DNA of 64,000 nucleotides. Origin: Synechococcus sp. UW179A. Its GTDB lineage: Bacteria > Cyanobacteriota > Cyanobacteriia > PCC-6307 > Cyanobiaceae. The position numbers and the translations under genes are program-made. Location: contig NZ_UCNJ01000024.1 of NCBI RefSeq assembly GCF_900473965.1, forward strand, positions 62,001-126,000. Reading direction: 5' to 3'. The notes beneath the pieces are model-generated. The model was not told the DNA's origin, made no database searches, and saw only the letters and a list, made by a program, of their open reading frames with translations. Of this stretch, positions 1,835 to 51,792 are shown in pieces; position 1 is the stretch's first letter, and each line of letters opens with the position of its first letter.

Positions 1835-4225
1835 TCAAATGGAAGGTTGAAGATCTGTGCTGTTTAGCATTGGATTTGTTTGAGATCCGGGAATGGATGG
1901 ATTGGTCGTAACCGGGTTGATCTGGTCATTGACTGGTTGAAGATTGCTGCTCATCAGGATTGGATTAGTCTCTAATCCTGCAATCGATGGGTTGATCTCA
2001 GCGTGATTGAACTCCTCGACCTTTGTGAATGTCTCAAGAGCAGGATTGGAATTCGGGTTCAGATTTTGTTGATCTTCTTGGCTAAGCAGGAAATCATTTT
2101 TGTTGATGATTCTTGAGCTCAGATTGTGTTGGCTGAAGTTGGCAGCCTGAACATCCTTGAAGATCACCAAGGCAATCTTATCGTTGTCTTGTTGGTTGAA
2201 TCCATCGGAATCAAAGTACAGGGTGCTGTCATTTCCTTCTTGCGCGAAGCTTAAAAAGCCATCTTCAAAAATAGATTGTCGATTGAAGCCGATCCCATGG
2301 CCGATCAGGATGTCATCGCAGTCGATGCTGTCGCCGTTTTCACCGGTGATGAAGTCCACAAACATCAGCGGGTCGCTTGCATTCATCTGCGGATCCGATG
2401 CCTCGGAGGAGTTCAGACTGTTCAGCTTTGGCTCTTGATCCACGTTGGTGGTGTTGTCAGCCAGGGCTGGTTTGAACTGGTTGGTTTCTGCTTTGGGGCC
2501 CGTCTCAGCAACTGGGCTGTTGAGGTCCTGAACCGTCAGTTCCTCAATGGGACCCACCCGCTCTTTAGATTCTTTCGCTTGGAGCAGGCTTGTGAAGTAG
2601 TTGCGGGTTAGTCGCAGCTTGTCGGAGCCAGCACCGGAGATGTAGGTGATTCCAGTGCCGCCGTCGACGGTTAATTCATCATCTTGAGCACCAGTGTCCA
2701 CAAGCAATTGCTTGGTCTCAAGGCCAGTGATTCTGACGTTGTCGAAGCCTTCGCCAGTTCGCACCGTGCTGTTGAGCGCATTGCCCTTGATCTCGACGCT
2801 GTCGTCACCAGGTCCAACATCCAGGGTGCTGTTGCGCATGGCCCAGGCCGTGGTGCTGTTGCCCAGCGCATTCGCATCAAGGCGCACGACATCGTTACCG
2901 GTTTCGGTTTCGAGCACTGAATGGTCGAGACCGATGGCTTCGGCGTAACCGCAGTGATTGGTGGCGCTGGCTTTGATGTGCACCTTGTCGTTATCGGCGC
3001 CGGTATTGATCTGAGAATCCAGGGCGCCATAGGCGGCGATGGTGTCAGTGGTGTTGCCGCGAGCGATGGCATTGATGCGCAGTTTGTCTCTGCCTTGGCC
3101 GGAGCTAAAAGAGCTGTTGTCCATGCCGTAGGCGGGATCAAAGGCGCCTGCGCGGGTCACAGCACGCAGATCAATGCTGTCGTGGCCAGCACCAGCATCC
3201 AGAGTGCTGTTGCGCATGGCCCAGGCATTGGTGCTGTTGCCGCAGGCACGGGCATGAATGCGCACGACATCGTCACCGGTTTCGGTTTCGAGCACTGAAT
3301 GGTCGAGACCGATGGCTTCGGCGTAACCACGGCGATTGCTGGCGGAGGCTCGGATCTGCACCTTGTCGTTATCGGCGCCGGTATTGATCTGAGAATCCAG
3401 GGCGCCATAGGCGGCGATGGTGTCAGTGGTGTTGCCGCGAGCGATGGCATTGATGCGCAGTTTGTCTCTGCCTTGGCCGGAGCTAAAAGAGCTGTTGTCC
3501 ATGCCGTAGGCGGGATCAAAGGCGCCTGCACGGGTCACAGCACGCAGATCAACTTTGTCGTGACCAGGCCCAACATCCAGGGTGCTGTTGCGCATGGCCC
3601 AGGCATTGGTGCTCATGCCGCGGGCATGGGCATGAATGCGCACGACATCGTCACCGGTTTCGGTTTCGAGCACTGAATTGTCGAGACCGATGGCTTCGGC
3701 GTAACCACGGCGATTGCTGGCGGAGGCTCGGATCTGCACCTTGTCGTTATCGGCGCCGGTATTGATCTGAGAATCCAGGGCGCCATAGGCGGCGATGGTG
3801 TCAGTGGTGTTGCCGCGAGCGATGGCATTGATGCGCAGTTTGTCTCTGCCTTGGCCGGAGCTAAAAGAGCTGTTGTCCATGCCGTAGGCGGGATCAAAGG
3901 CGCCTGCACGGGTCACAGCACGCAGATCAACTTTGTCGTGACCAGGCCCAACATCCAGGGTGCTGTTGCGCATGGCCCAGGCATTGGTGCTCATGCCGCG
4001 GGCATGGGCATGAATGCGCACGGAATCATTGCCTGCTGCGGTTGCAACGGTGGAATTGTTGAGTCCAGTCGCTTCGGCGTAGCCACCTCGATTGATGGCA
4101 CCAGCGCGAATGTCAATGCGATCGTTGTTGTTTCCAGAGAGAATTGTCCGTCCGTCCACAGTGGTGACGGAAACGGAAGGTCGGGGGCCGCGGTTGCGTT
4201 GGAAGGCACGTGCGATGAAGTTCAT
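1835..4225 (-). CDS. RTX-like repeat protein with tandem 126-residue units and type I secretion-like C-terminus
   Basis: Function unknown; probably an extracellular or surface protein. The 796 residues have no Sec signal peptide. Residues about 20-480 consist of ~31-residue sub-repeats built around G-x-G/D-x-D-x-h-x-h, for example VGPGHDKVDL, GQGRDKLRI, TGADNDKVQI and TETGDDVVRI. These resemble calcium-binding RTX nonapeptides but are less glycine-rich. Four sub-repeats make a 126-residue unit that recurs about three times. Around residues 610-700, DILIGHGIGF, LSFAQEG and LYFDSDGF resemble the C-terminal target domain of type I secreted proteins. A duplicated tail (NPSIAGLETNP, NPSIPGSQTNP) ends the protein. 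No type I exporter genes are nearby. The next upstream gene is divergent, across a palindrome-rich spacer. Confidence 0.8.
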   Translation of the reverse strand: MNFIARAFQRNRGPRPSVSVTTVDGRTILSGNNNDRIDIRAGAINRGGYAEATGLNNSTVATAAGNDSVRIHAHARGMSTNAWAMRNSTLDVGPGHDKVDLRAVTRAGAFDPAYGMDNSSFSSGQGRDKLRINAIARGNTTDTIAAYGALDSQINTGADNDKVQIRASASNRRGYAEAIGLDNSVLETETGDDVVRIHAHARGMSTNAWAMRNSTLDVGPGHDKVDLRAVTRAGAFDPAYGMDNSSFSSGQGRDKLRINAIARGNTTDTIAAYGALDSQINTGADNDKVQIRASASNRRGYAEAIGLDHSVLETETGDDVVRIHARACGNSTNAWAMRNSTLDAGAGHDSIDLRAVTRAGAFDPAYGMDNSSFSSGQGRDKLRINAIARGNTTDTIAAYGALDSQINTGADNDKVHIKASATNHCGYAEAIGLDHSVLETETGNDVVRLDANALGNSTTAWAMRNSTLDVGPGDDSVEIKGNALNSTVRTGEGFDNVRITGLETKQLLVDTGAQDDELTVDGGTGITYISGAGSDKLRLTRNYFTSLLQAKESKERVGPIEELTVQDLNSPVAETGPKAETNQFKPALADNTTNVDQEPKLNSLNSSEASDPQMNASDPLMFVDFITGENGDSIDCDDILIGHGIGFNRQSIFEDGFLSFAQEGNDSTLYFDSDGFNQQDNDKIALVIFKDVQAANFSQHNLSSRIINKNDFLLSQEDQQNLNPNSNPALETFTKVEEFNHAEINPSIAGLETNPILMSSNLQPVNDQINPVTTNPSIPGSQTNPMLNSTDLQPSI
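2885..4018. repeat. Three tandem 378-bp repeats inside the RTX-like gene
   Basis: Units are approximately 2885-3262, 3263-3640 and 3641-4018. The last two look identical except for a single base that I could see (near 3301 versus 3679). The first unit is more diverged. The period is a multiple of three (126 codons), so copy-number change keeps the frame. Confidence 0.9.
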
Positions 4226-47249: not shown

Positions 47250-48854
47250 TCAACTTGGCAAGCGAGGACAGGCTTCGACCAGTGTTCGCGTGATCTCAGC
47301 CTGCGGTTGATTCAGCAACCGGTCACCGGGTCCCTCCTCCACGACATGTCCTTTGTTGAGCACGATCAGTCGATGGCAGAAGCCACAGGCCACTGAAAGG
47401 TCATGGGTGATGAAGATCATGGTGAGTCCAAGCTCCTGCTGCAGCTGCCGAAGCAGGGACAGAACTTCTGCCTGGATTTCGGCATCGAGCATGCTCACGC
47501 TTTCATCACAGATCAGCACCTTCGGTTTCAGCGCCAGAGCGCGGGCGATGGCCACCCGTTGCTGCTGGCCCCCGGAAAGTTGGCGGGGAAGCCGATTCTG
47601 GTAACGATCGGCTGGTCCAAGGCCCACGCGTTCAAGCAGCTGGCGGCCTTGTTCTCGAGCTGCCGCTGGTGACGCCAGATTGTGGATCCGCAGTGGATCG
47701 ACGATGGCATCCAGCACCGGCATGGCTGGATTCAGACAGGCCAGTGGGTCCTGGAACACCATCTGAATGGTTCGCCGTGCCCGGCGCGCCTCACGTCCCC
47801 GCAGCCTGAGCAGATCCTGACCGAGTAACTGCACCCTGCCACCACGAATCGGCGTTAGTCCCATCAGGGCACGGCAAAGGGTGCTTTTGCCGCAGCCAGA
47901 TCCTCCCACCACTCCAAGGGTTTCGCCGGCTCGCAATTGGAAGCTGATGCCGTCTACCGCTTTCAGCCAGGTTGGATTCCAGGGCGGACCGCCCAGGTTG
48001 TGCCAGCAGCGCAGTTCCTGCACAGCCAGCACCGTTTCGGCCTCGGGTGCTTCAGGGGTGCTTCCCCCTTCTCGTGCTCGGGCAGCGGCAAGTAGCCGTT
48101 GTCCCACCCTTGAGCTGGGATAGGTCAGAACCACGTCGCTGCGGTTGATCTCCACGACCTGTCCACCGTCCAGCACAGCCATGCGTTCGCACCAGCGATT
48201 GGCCATGGCCAGATCGTGGGTGATCAGCAACAGAGCACTGCCCAGTTCCTTGCACAGCGCTCTCAGGGCAGCCATCACCTGACCAGCCACCGCTACATCG
48301 AGGCTGGTGGTGGGTTCGTCCGCGATCACCAGGGGAGGACTCAGGGCGATGGCCAGTGCAATGGCAAGGCGCTGACGCATGCCGCCGCTGAACTCATGGG
48401 GGTAGGCGCGGAAGCGAGCAGCGCCGATGCCCACCTGCTCCAGCAGCTCCTTGGCCCGCTTAAGACGTTCTGTCTCGTGCATAGTCGGCCTATGGGCACG
48501 CAGGGTATCGATCAGATGACCGCCCACCGTCATCAGTGGATTTAGGCGTGTCATCGGATCCTGAAATACCAGTCCCACCGATTCGCCGCGCAATCTCCTC
48601 AGATCGGTCAAGTTGAGGCTGCGGGGATCGTGACCGTTCAGGCTTAGTTCTCCTTCGCAACTGCTGCCTGGGGGCAGCAGTTGCAGCGCTGCCCTGGCCA
48701 CCGTGCTCTTGCCGCAGCCGGAGGGACCCACCAGGGCCAGGCGTTCGCCGGGATGCAGGCGCAGGTCAAGCCCATCGAGGGTCCAGGCCTGGCTTCCCGG
48801 GTAACGGAGCCGGAATTGTTCGAGCTCCAGCACAGTCCCTTGCGCGGTTGTCAT
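47250..48854 (-). CDS. Fused double ATPase of a peptide/nickel-type ABC transporter
   Basis: A DppD and a DppF-like ATPase in one chain of 534 residues. Each half has Walker A (GPSGCGKST; GGSGCGKST), a signature (FSGGMRQRLAIA; LSGGQQQRVAIA) and Walker B (LVIADEPTTSLD; VLICDESVSMLD). The second half has the QLLGQDLLRLRG and QMVFQDPLACLNPAM segments of oligopeptide transporters. Substrate-binding and permease genes are not adjacent. In the second half the Walker B Asp-Glu is followed by SVSMLDAEIQ, normal for the family. The start ATG at 48854 is preferred; 48878 adds eight residues. Divergent from relA. Confidence 0.92.
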   Translation of the reverse strand: MTTAQGTVLELEQFRLRYPGSQAWTLDGLDLRLHPGERLALVGPSGCGKSTVARAALQLLPPGSSCEGELSLNGHDPRSLNLTDLRRLRGESVGLVFQDPMTRLNPLMTVGGHLIDTLRAHRPTMHETERLKRAKELLEQVGIGAARFRAYPHEFSGGMRQRLAIALAIALSPPLVIADEPTTSLDVAVAGQVMAALRALCKELGSALLLITHDLAMANRWCERMAVLDGGQVVEINRSDVVLTYPSSRVGQRLLAAARAREGGSTPEAPEAETVLAVQELRCWHNLGGPPWNPTWLKAVDGISFQLRAGETLGVVGGSGCGKSTLCRALMGLTPIRGGRVQLLGQDLLRLRGREARRARRTIQMVFQDPLACLNPAMPVLDAIVDPLRIHNLASPAAAREQGRQLLERVGLGPADRYQNRLPRQLSGGQQQRVAIARALALKPKVLICDESVSMLDAEIQAEVLSLLRQLQQELGLTMIFITHDLSVACGFCHRLIVLNKGHVVEEGPGDRLLNQPQAEITRTLVEACPRLPS

Positions 48855-48911: not shown

Positions 48912-50792
48912 ATGCTCAACGCCACCTCCGAGACGGTCGCAGTTCGGATCCGGAATGGATCCGCTGCACCGGCTTGCGGTCTGGTGGCTCTGAGGGACAG
49001 GCCCATCCGTTCGGCTGATGATTACGGCATCGATCTCCCCGCCTGGTTGCGTGAGTGCATCGACCACGTGCCGCCAGGGATCGGTCACAGCTGTCCCACC
49101 GATTCAGAGGCTCTGCTCGCAGCGGCCTTTGATTTTGCTTTTCAGCTGCACGAGGGCCAGTTTCGAGCCAGCGGAGACCCTTACATCGTCCATCCGGTGG
49201 CGGTGGCTGATCTGTTGAGGGATATCGGTGCCAGCGCCAGCGTGATCGCTGCGGGCTTCCTTCACGACGTGGTGGAGGACACCGATGTCACTCCAGAGCA
49301 GCTCGAGAGTCATTTCGGACCGGAAGTCCGCGAGCTCGTGGAGGGGGTCACCAAGCTTGGCGGGCTGCACTTCACCAATCGCACTGAGGCTCAAGCCGAA
49401 AACCTGCGCAAGATGTTCCTGGCGATGGCCAGTGACATCCGAGTTGTGCTGGTGAAGCTTGCGGACCGGTTGCACAACATGCGCACGCTGGGGGCGCTGC
49501 GGGAGGAAAAGCGCCAGCGCATCGCCCGGGAAACCCGGGAGATTTATGCACCTTTGGCCAATCGTCTTGGCATCGGTCGCTTCAAATGGGAGTTGGAGGA
49601 TCTGTCCTTCAAATTGCTTGAGCCGGATGCCTTCAGGGAGATTCAGCAGGAAGTTGCGACCAAGCGCAGCGAGCGGGAGGAACGTCTAGGGGTCACTGTT
49701 CAGTTGCTCAGTGATCGCCTGGCGGCTGTCGGGCTTGAGAACTGTGAGGTGAGCGGCCGGCCCAAGCACCTCTTCGGCATCTGGACCAAGATGCAGCGGC
49801 AGCAAAAAGCCTTCCACGAGATCTACGACGTGGCGGCCTTGAGGATCCTCACCCCCAGCGTTGAGGCCTGCTATAGGGCTCTTGCGGTGGTTCACGACAC
49901 CTTCCGTCCTATTCCCGGGCGCTTCAAGGACTACATCGGTCTGCCCAAGCCCAATGGCTATCAGTCGTTGCATACGGCTGTGATCGGTCGTCACCGTCCG
50001 ATCGAAGTGCAGATCCGAACGCTGGATATGCATCGGGTGGCGGAGTTCGGAATTGCCGCGCACTGGAAATACAAAGAAGGTGGTTCACCAGCTGCCGGTG
50101 GAGACACTGAACGCTTCAACTGGTTGCGGCAACTTGTTGACTGGCAGCAGGAAGGGGGAGCTGATGACCACAACGACTACCTCGCTTCGATCAAGGAAGA
50201 TCTCTTCGATGAAGAGGTATTCGTATTCACACCTAAAGGCGACGTTCTGGGTTTGCGCAAGGGTTCTACGGCTGTGGATTTTGCTTATCGCATCCACTCG
50301 GAAGTGGGTAATCACTGCCATGGCGTGCGCATCAATGATCGACTTTCTCCCCTGTCGACGCCGCTCCAGAACGGTGATTTTGTGAATGTACTCACGAGCA
50401 AGACGGCACATCCCAGTCTTGATTGGCTCAATTTTGTGGCGACGCCTACGGCGCGTAATCGCATCCGCCAGTGGTACAAACGCAGCCATCGGAATGAAAC
50501 GGTTGAGCGGGGAAAGGACCTGCTCGAACGGGAGCTGGGACGCAGCGGTTTTGATGCTCTGCTCAGCAGTGATGCGATGACGCGCGTAGCCGAGCGTTGC
50601 AACCTGCTCAGTACTGAGGATCTGCTTGCGGCCCTCGGTTTCGGAGCCGTCACCCTGCATCAGGTGCTCAACCGTCTCAGAGAGGAGATCCGTCTGCAGG
50701 CCGCCATCGAGGAGCCACCGCTCAGTAACGAAGACGTTGCTCGCCAGCTTGTGCAGCAGGCGGAAACCGGCCCCCCCCCGCTCCAGTCCTGA
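48912..50792 (+). CDS. relA: RelA/SpoT (p)ppGpp synthetase/hydrolase, catalytic part, truncated by frameshift
   Basis: Bifunctional stringent-response enzyme. From the ATG at 48912 the 626-residue frame has the hydrolase HD domain (about 60-230: GDPYIVHPVAVADLLRDI, GFLHDVVEDTDV), the synthetase domain (about 260-380: RFKDYIGLPKPNGYQSLHTAVIG) and the TGS domain (about 430-495: EEVFVFTPKGDVLGLRKGSTAVDFAYRIHSEVG). It stops soon after a run of nine C at 50771-50779. Removing one C restores an open frame to 51246 with the C-terminal regulatory domains, giving about 777 residues as usual for the family. Longer in-frame sequence before 48912 lies against the ABC gene and is rejected. Confidence 0.93.
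   Translation: MLNATSETVAVRIRNGSAAPACGLVALRDRPIRSADDYGIDLPAWLRECIDHVPPGIGHSCPTDSEALLAAAFDFAFQLHEGQFRASGDPYIVHPVAVADLLRDIGASASVIAAGFLHDVVEDTDVTPEQLESHFGPEVRELVEGVTKLGGLHFTNRTEAQAENLRKMFLAMASDIRVVLVKLADRLHNMRTLGALREEKRQRIARETREIYAPLANRLGIGRFKWELEDLSFKLLEPDAFREIQQEVATKRSEREERLGVTVQLLSDRLAAVGLENCEVSGRPKHLFGIWTKMQRQQKAFHEIYDVAALRILTPSVEACYRALAVVHDTFRPIPGRFKDYIGLPKPNGYQSLHTAVIGRHRPIEVQIRTLDMHRVAEFGIAAHWKYKEGGSPAAGGDTERFNWLRQLVDWQQEGGADDHNDYLASIKEDLFDEEVFVFTPKGDVLGLRKGSTAVDFAYRIHSEVGNHCHGVRINDRLSPLSTPLQNGDFVNVLTSKTAHPSLDWLNFVATPTARNRIRQWYKRSHRNETVERGKDLLERELGRSGFDALLSSDAMTRVAERCNLLSTEDLLAALGFGAVTLHQVLNRLREEIRLQAAIEEPPLSNEDVARQLVQQAETGPPPLQS
50771..50779. repeat. C9 homopolymer at the relA frameshift
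   Basis: Nine consecutive C are read CCC CCC CCG in the catalytic frame. A run of eight (or +1 frameshifting here) would join the catalytic and regulatory parts of RelA. Such a tract is prone both to slipped-strand mutation and to sequencing error. Confidence 0.85.
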
Positions 50793-51246
50793 TCAGCAGG
50801 ACCCCATCCTTGGTGTGGAGGGTCTCGACTACCGCCTCGGTGGTTGTTGCAGCCCTCTTCCCGGCGAGGCGATTCTGGGTACGGTTGCCCTCGGCAACCA
50901 TGGCATCACCGTGCATCGCCAGGACTGCTCTAATGTTGTGGCGATTCCCAGTGAACGGCGATTGCCTGTGCGCTGGAATCCCGCTTTGGTGACAAGAAGC
51001 CAACGCTTCCCTGCGCAGCTGCGCATTGAGGTGATCGACCGTGTCGGGATTCTCAAGGACATCCTGATGCGCCTCTCTGATGGACGCATCAACGTCAGTG
51101 ATGCCCGCGTGAAAACCAGCCATGGAAAGCCCGCGCGCATTGATCTGCGTCTGGAGTTGGCCAGTGCCGAGCAACTGCAGCGCACCATGCACCAGATCCG
51201 CTCAATGGCAGATGTAATTGATATCGCCCGCAGCAGCGGTACTTAA
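50780..51246 (+). pseudogene. relA: RelA/SpoT C-terminal regulatory part, out of frame
   Basis: In the +1 frame relative to the catalytic part: DPILGVEGLDYRLGGCCSPLPGEAILGTVALGNHGITVHRQDC is the conserved-cysteine region of the family. LRIEVIDRVGILKDILMRLSDGRIN, with ARIDLRLELASAEQLQRTMHQIR, is the ACT domain. It has no start codon of its own that makes sense, so it is expressed only if the frame is restored. The sequence is otherwise intact, with no further stops, which argues that the disruption is recent or not real. Confidence 0.9.
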
Positions 51247-51264
51247 CTTTGCTGGCGACTGCCC

Positions 51265-51792
51265 TCAGCGTTTGCGTTGTTGTTGTAGGAGCCAATTCAG
51301 GCTCAGCCACCAACCCAGTGCCGCGCTGACGGCTCCCGTAATGCTGGAGCCCAGCAGCAAACGGCTGATCACGCTCCATCCCAACTGACTAAAGCCGTCG
51401 GGGTTCACGGCATCGAAGCCAGGCCATTCGCGGCCGGGGCCGAGCAGCAGAGCCCCGATCCGGTAGTTGAACCAGTAGAGCGGCAGATAGGTGAAGGGAT
51501 TGCTGATCCAGGTGCCTGCAGCCGCCAATAAATGGTTTCCACGCACCACACTGGCCAGTGCGATTCCCACCAGTGTCTGCAAACCGAAGATCGGAAAGCA
51601 GCCGCAGAAGATCCCGGCTGCAAGCCCACGGGCCCGCTGTCCCGGAGTGCCTTCCTGTTGCCAGATCCATTGCAGACTTTGCTGCAGGCGTCGATGTGCC
51701 TTTGTCAGCATCCGGCCCATGGGAGTGTCGGCGGTTCTCGCATGCCATTGAGGATGTGATCGTAGGGAGTGGGCTAGGGGCTGTTGCAGCAT
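51265..51792 (-). CDS. DUF2062 membrane protein
   Basis: A 175-residue protein from the ATG at 51792 (51720 would give 151 residues). RARGLAAGIFCGCFPIFGLQTLVGIALASVVRGN, TWISNPFTYLPLYWFNYRIG and a C-terminal hydrophobic helix match DUF2062 proteins, which have two or three membrane helices and unknown function. Reading further upstream in frame would overlap mnmE. The start is only 4 bp from the divergent mnmE start. Confidence 0.85.
   Translation of the reverse strand: MLQQPLAHSLRSHPQWHARTADTPMGRMLTKAHRRLQQSLQWIWQQEGTPGQRARGLAAGIFCGCFPIFGLQTLVGIALASVVRGNHLLAAAGTWISNPFTYLPLYWFNYRIGALLLGPGREWPGFDAVNPDGFSQLGWSVISRLLLGSSITGAVSAALGWWLSLNWLLQQQRKR

Follow-up and report, generated by a model that had tools for sequence, protein, structure and literature searches.

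The window, by which we mean the whole 64-kb stretch of DNA that was analysed, is part of a 194.6-kb contig from a draft genome of 3.06 Mb in 35 contigs. It contains a gene for Rel that is divided between two reading frames, with the change of frame at a run of nine C (C9). The comparisons below lean on the nearest relative, G008, which we take to be BIOS-E4-1. The features of the locus are as follows.

48912 to 50792, + strand: catalytic part of Rel, with HD hydrolase, synthetase, TGS and helical domains (open frame, Pfam matches, 99% identity to residues 1-622 of the G008 protein)
50771 to 50779, + strand: C9 run and one-base frame change (from the letters themselves and from comparison with G008)
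50791 to 51246, + strand: C-terminal regulatory part of Rel, with the Cys-Cys/zinc-finger motif and ACT domain (ACT_4 match, spoT_relA positions 542-686, frame open to a TAA)

The first frame runs from an ATG at 48912 to a TGA at 50790-50792 and encodes a product of 626 aa, the final six residues of which are encoded in or past the C9 run. Pfam matches in this frame are to HD_4 (E 7.3e-52), RelA_SpoT (E 3.7e-40), TGS and RelA_AH_RIS. The match to ACT_4 lies in the +1 frame, where the TAA at 51244-51246 is the first stop, and the regulatory part is out of frame with the start codon at 48912. The NCBIfam model spoT_relA (687 positions) is divided in the same way, positions 1-528 being covered by the first part and 542-686 by the second. 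The HD and synthetase domains of a long RSH (Rel) enzyme are thus present, but the TGS, helical and ACT domains do not share one polypeptide, as ACT_4 is found in the second frame only. An earlier note on this DNA had described the catalytic and regulatory parts as intact but in different frames, the change being in the +1 direction and the regulatory part holding no further stops. The Pfam matches, the coverage of spoT_relA and the frame open to the TAA agree with this description throughout.

The same note placed the break at the C9 tract. The frame change must fall between QAETG and SSPDQQDP, both conserved in G008, and C9 sits between these flanking residues, which confirms the placement. 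The position of C9 at the frame change is not chance. A run of this type is by itself no rarity in the window: C9 is the sole C/G run of at least eight bases in the 64 kb, and the two placements of C8 compare with a mean of 3.09 in dinucleotide shuffles, 76 out of 100 of which hold at least two. When the catalytic part of Rel was used as a query against the full assembly, one match came back. A GTG at 50815, 22 bases past the TGA, is in the right frame for the 3′ part and has no evident ribosome site. The 3′ part was considered as a separate gene and rejected as such, given this weak start and the lack of any promoter-like site at 50500-51300.

The earlier note had also proposed a comparison with related genomes, and this places the split in the window's genome only. 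The full Rel of G008 (777 aa) was compared by tblastn with 110 Rel loci from two collections, in which some genomes are counted twice. The junction is crossed in one frame in 106 of these, three are ended by contig ends (L028, L029 and L132) and the single split locus is that of the window; the species is represented by one genome, and the comparison set may omit further records of that genome. A search of the family with Rel found matches in 248 of 250 genomes, with weaker best matches in G056, G222 and G249. Among the 150 matches listed, 149 reach at least residue 773 and the window's ends at 624. At the site of the run G008 reads GGC ACC CCC CGC TCC, in which an A interrupts the run; relative to G008, the window's genome has a C in place of this A, plus one extra base. 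The linker was printed for 16 relatives, and among these a C6 occurs in G008 only and no run is longer. Runs of C7-C8 are found up to 150 bases upstream of the Cys-Cys motif in L094, L126 and L133, all of them in frame.

The age of the lesion can be approached through the part that follows it. Against G008, the 147 codons of the 3′ part show 20 synonymous and 4 non-synonymous differences, and the 585 codons compared before the run show 95 and 2, respectively. For pairs that do not include the window's genome, the synonymous and non-synonymous counts are 35 and 1 (G008-G026) up to 59 and 15 (G008-G009 and G009-G026), and the G026-G017 pair gives 22 and 5. These counts suggest that the 3′ part is under weaker constraint than the catalytic part, in other pairs too, and that it was under purifying selection until recently. 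As the 3′ part is conserved and free of stops, the rel frame appears to have been intact until recently, or to be intact still. The split is restricted to one genome and the 3′ part bears the mark of purifying selection; the lesion would therefore be either recent or an error. An old fixed truncation was ruled out on account of the same selection.

Two further genes of this genome are interrupted, the second of them by the same one-base step as rel.

L192:1243-1245 and L194 (G000:C2): mutS, where an in-frame TAG replaces a Tyr codon and divides the ATPase from the remainder
L150:1498-1506 (G000:C11): large surface-type gene split at a run of nine G (G9)

The TAG in mutS is codon 638 in G008 numbering, and it leaves the MutS_V ATPase in an open frame just 274 aa long. 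Tyr occupies this position in all 22 relatives readable by a motif scan (6 of the 28 were not readable by it), and a tblastn search found a stop there in none of the 28. Changes in mutS relative to G008 number 53 and 14 after the stop, and 92 and 29 before it. Conservation is as high past the stop as ahead of it, and this lesion, too, therefore appears to be recent. A MutS ATPase query was matched in all 24 genus genomes that are at least 90% complete. Within the genus, two genomes have an interrupted mutS, the window's and G006, a draft in which a frame change at a C7 run splits the gene (L217, ~2643-2650, minus strand).

In a mutator of the mutS type, MutS would act with MutL, a partner of which we found no trace by domain searches. 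MutL_C has no match in the window's genome, and DNA_mis_repair (PF01119) has none in the 31 genomes of the genus or in 250 genomes of the family, from 34 genera; in the same MutL searches 11 of 14 control genomes were positive, including Synechococcus elongatus. According to a review, several Prochlorococcus strains have no mutL (PMC5101192), and for Prochlorococcus MED4, which is without MutL, a paper of 2010 leaves it as a question whether MutS serves such repair there (PMC2921402). A hypothesis paper on cyanobacterial palindromes describes MutS and MutL as universal, cyanobacteria included (PMC4390886); for MutL, this disagrees with our searches of the family. In meningococcus, loss of mutS or mutL is described as associated with raised rates of phase variation (PMC5084427).

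The gene split at G9 sits on a 5.6-kb contig. A Big_12 domain precedes the run, and the match to DUF4114 that follows it is weak and below the family cut-off. The counterparts of this gene are undivided, with open frames of 3694-7759 aa in two copies from G008 and one from G005; in G008 the run at the G9 site is interrupted.

On balance, we lean towards a true recent slip as the origin of the break in rel, with one extra base left unrepaired in the single Rel gene that the search gave. The run in the linker has no interruption and is one base longer than the open frame permits, which splits Rel. Moreover, mutS is stopped before its ATPase, in a family in which MutL was found in no genome searched. 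Replication would have slipped in the longest C run of the contig, and the slip would have gone uncorrected, perhaps because MutS, too, had been lost from a repair system that had no MutL to begin with. It is plausible that the stop in mutS helped the slip to persist, although the shorter runs show no surplus of indels and MutS may not protect runs where MutL is lacking. The rel lesion would date from the time in culture or from just before isolation. A break of the type seen in rel is an ordinary event. What lifts it above the ordinary is that one genome combines damage to a core regulator, a mutS with a stop and another gene split at a long run, in a family that gave no MutL.

The main rival is an error of sequencing, PCR or assembly; the count of the run would be one too high, and cells would carry an intact gene. 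This is a less probable explanation, although a substantial one. The genome is a draft of many contigs, and nine-base runs are where such errors fall. Moreover, the 3′ part evolves in the manner of a translated sequence, the G9 split is on a small contig, and the mutS split at C7 in the draft G006 could be an error of the same type. However, the lesion in the window's own mutS is a substitution, which the miscounting of runs leaves unexplained.

The reliability of the draft bears on this reading. Syntenic stretches of 200 kb from G008, G026 and G009 were set against the contig, which has long blocks 91-93% identical to G008. Places flagged as broken by the gene call of at least one relative number 10 here, 7 in G008, 6 in G026 and 7 in G009. 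Those flagged by all three relatives number one here (relA), one in G008, two in G026 and none in G009. At the other nine places here the flag came from no more than two of the relatives; several of these places shift near the gene start and look like start-site differences. With G026 as the reference, 69 runs of 5-8 bases were comparable in the four genomes and none was changed only here, a comparison that is weak for long runs as only 4 of the 69 have at least 7 bases. Of the same runs, one was changed in G008 alone and two in G026 alone. When G009 served as the reference (67 runs), the counts were none for the window's genome and one each for G008 and G009. The rel run is absent from the references, and the comparison of runs is blind to it. 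Thus, a draft full of indels is not borne out for the shorter runs, either by the gene calls of relatives or by the comparison of runs. The same result cuts two ways. The excess of one-base indels in runs that would mark a mutator was not found among these runs of 5-8 bases, and this counts against a slip in a lineage whose repair was lost long ago: shorter runs should then vary, yet none of the 69 has changed here alone.

This contig has nine C/G runs of at least 7 bases, seven of them within called genes (four of 7 bases, two of 8 and the C9); no gene with one of the six other runs is flagged as broken by all three relatives. Across the genome there are 34 C/G runs of at least 8 bases, 13 of them of at least 9. 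Three of the 13, namely a C10, the C9 of rel and the G9 described above, are clearly inside coding sequence, as judged from open frames together with codon bias, the remaining long runs having been sorted by codon bias alone. The C10, within another long gene of the same assembly, with an open frame of at least 679 aa that is presumably that of NAD-dependent DNA ligase, is in frame; the C9 and the G9 are not. A systematic miscount is therefore opposed by the clean shorter runs and by the C10 in frame. Long C runs are not exceptional in this genome: it has 19 placements of C10, second among the 31 genus genomes, and G022 has 29. A run of 18 C, apparently intergenic, was seen at G000:C12:450394-450411 (L154), and runs of 20 and 22 C were seen in the single-contig genome G022. 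A gene of ~220 aa in G008 (near 48000 in the reverse-complemented coordinates of its stretch) has one base fewer than in the window's genome, G026 and G009. Single-base breaks thus occur in a single-contig genome too.

A selected contingency switch would be a different matter: through frequent changes of run length, cells that have the regulatory end of Rel would live alongside cells that lack it, and this would be of advantage. We consider this improbable. Nine C do lie in a coding linker that is tolerant of length changes, the family is without MutL (0/250), and homopolymer switching is described as a known bacterial device (PMC2831843, PMC5084427). However, a phase-variable run should be kept in related strains, and the 16 printed linkers offer no run beyond the one C6. 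The C7-C8 runs near the Cys-Cys motif in three other loci are all in frame. It also counts against a switch that known switch genes mostly encode surface structures. The slippage-prone switch of the earlier note is not supported as a built-in device, since a plain unrepaired slip is enough and a switch is not needed. A related proposal requires no selection: in a MutL-less family, and in a strain also without MutS, rel would be an unstable C-run gene, and cells with and without the ribosome-sensing end would coexist as an unplanned, repair-dependent split of the stringent response. This, too, seems unlikely to us.

Programmed +1 ribosomal frameshifting on CCC-C, which would yield full-length Rel in a regulated way, as either the minor or the main product, is very hard to credit: the TGA lies ten bases past the run, the 3′ part is conserved and CCC-C beside a start codon is reported to shift +1 at up to ~1% in E. 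coli (PMC4519876), but no other Rel locus readable at the junction is split, so that a shift site is not conserved in relatives, the RNA 3′ of the run has no notable fold (z -1.66, with an equally good fold in 11 of 200 shuffles), and one native proline tRNA is described as favouring +2 over +1 on CCC-CG (PMC4519876). Of the origins put forward in the earlier note, a slip and a sequencing or assembly error both remain, and the programmed shift and the built-in switch are not supported.

If the slip is true, cells would make a Rel of 626 residues that keeps the hydrolase, synthetase, TGS and helical domains and has lost the zinc finger and ACT. The Cys-Cys motif belongs to the lost part, as its GGCC starts at residue 643 of the G008 protein. 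By analogy with Rel of B. subtilis, the truncated enzyme should keep (p)ppGpp hydrolysis and a low level of synthesis, and should lose activation by starved ribosomes. B. subtilis Rel without the zinc finger and RRM/ACT is reported to have had little toxicity in cells from which other (p)ppGpp enzymes were missing, and the same form aided the growth of cells lacking rel (PMC7058999). A synthesis-dead version of it aided growth too, which points to persisting hydrolysis, and Rel without RRM/ACT alone is described as toxic (PMC7058999). Because the B. subtilis form without both domains is mild in the results reported, the allele should by analogy be viable. The product predicted in the earlier note, a catalytic enzyme without its regulatory end, thus stands in outline, with B. 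subtilis Rel pointing to a mild effect. Traces of full-length Rel are possible, since CCC-C gave +1 shifts in the E. coli experiments cited; either back-slip or rare +1 shifts by ribosomes on CCC-C could supply some.

Should the nine C be real, this genome would be that of a natural Rel truncation mutant, and perhaps of a repair mutant. Stress data from this strain would then not represent its clade. Moreover, it would offer a convenient strain in which to study the role of the ribosome-sensing end of Rel in a marine cyanobacterium. A wider point concerns repair: MutS is kept although MutL was found in none of the 250 family genomes, which raises the question of whether mismatch repair works there. 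As a separate observation, Nif11 leaders of the prochlorosin type gave 117 matches in the window's genome, a very large set of which a few are below the family cut-off. The isolates UW179A and MIT9509 are credited with a record 79 and 83 precursors, numbers which the 117 matches resemble (PMC10783134).

The locus can be set beside four known systems. Across its two frames it has the order of a long bifunctional RSH Rel, namely HD, synthetase, TGS, helical, Cys-Cys/zinc finger and ACT, and the intact Rel of a relative aligns with the RelA chain 8fr8_I over residues 67-774; it differs in that the last two domains are out of frame. It resembles the B. subtilis Rel without zinc finger and RRM/ACT, in which nearly the same part is gone and both catalytic domains, TGS and the helical domain are kept, although that form was engineered and comes from another phylum (PMC7058999). 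As described for Listeria inlA, a one-base change in a run splits the gene in a way that is in principle reversible, but there a poly-A tract lies at the 5′ end of a surface gene, whereas here a poly-C tract lies near the 3′ third of a core regulator (PMC2831843). Finally, the interrupted mutS and two long runs out of frame recall the mutS-defective meningococcus described in PMC5084427, from which this genome differs in belonging to a family without MutL, as searched, and in showing no excess of indels in its shorter runs.
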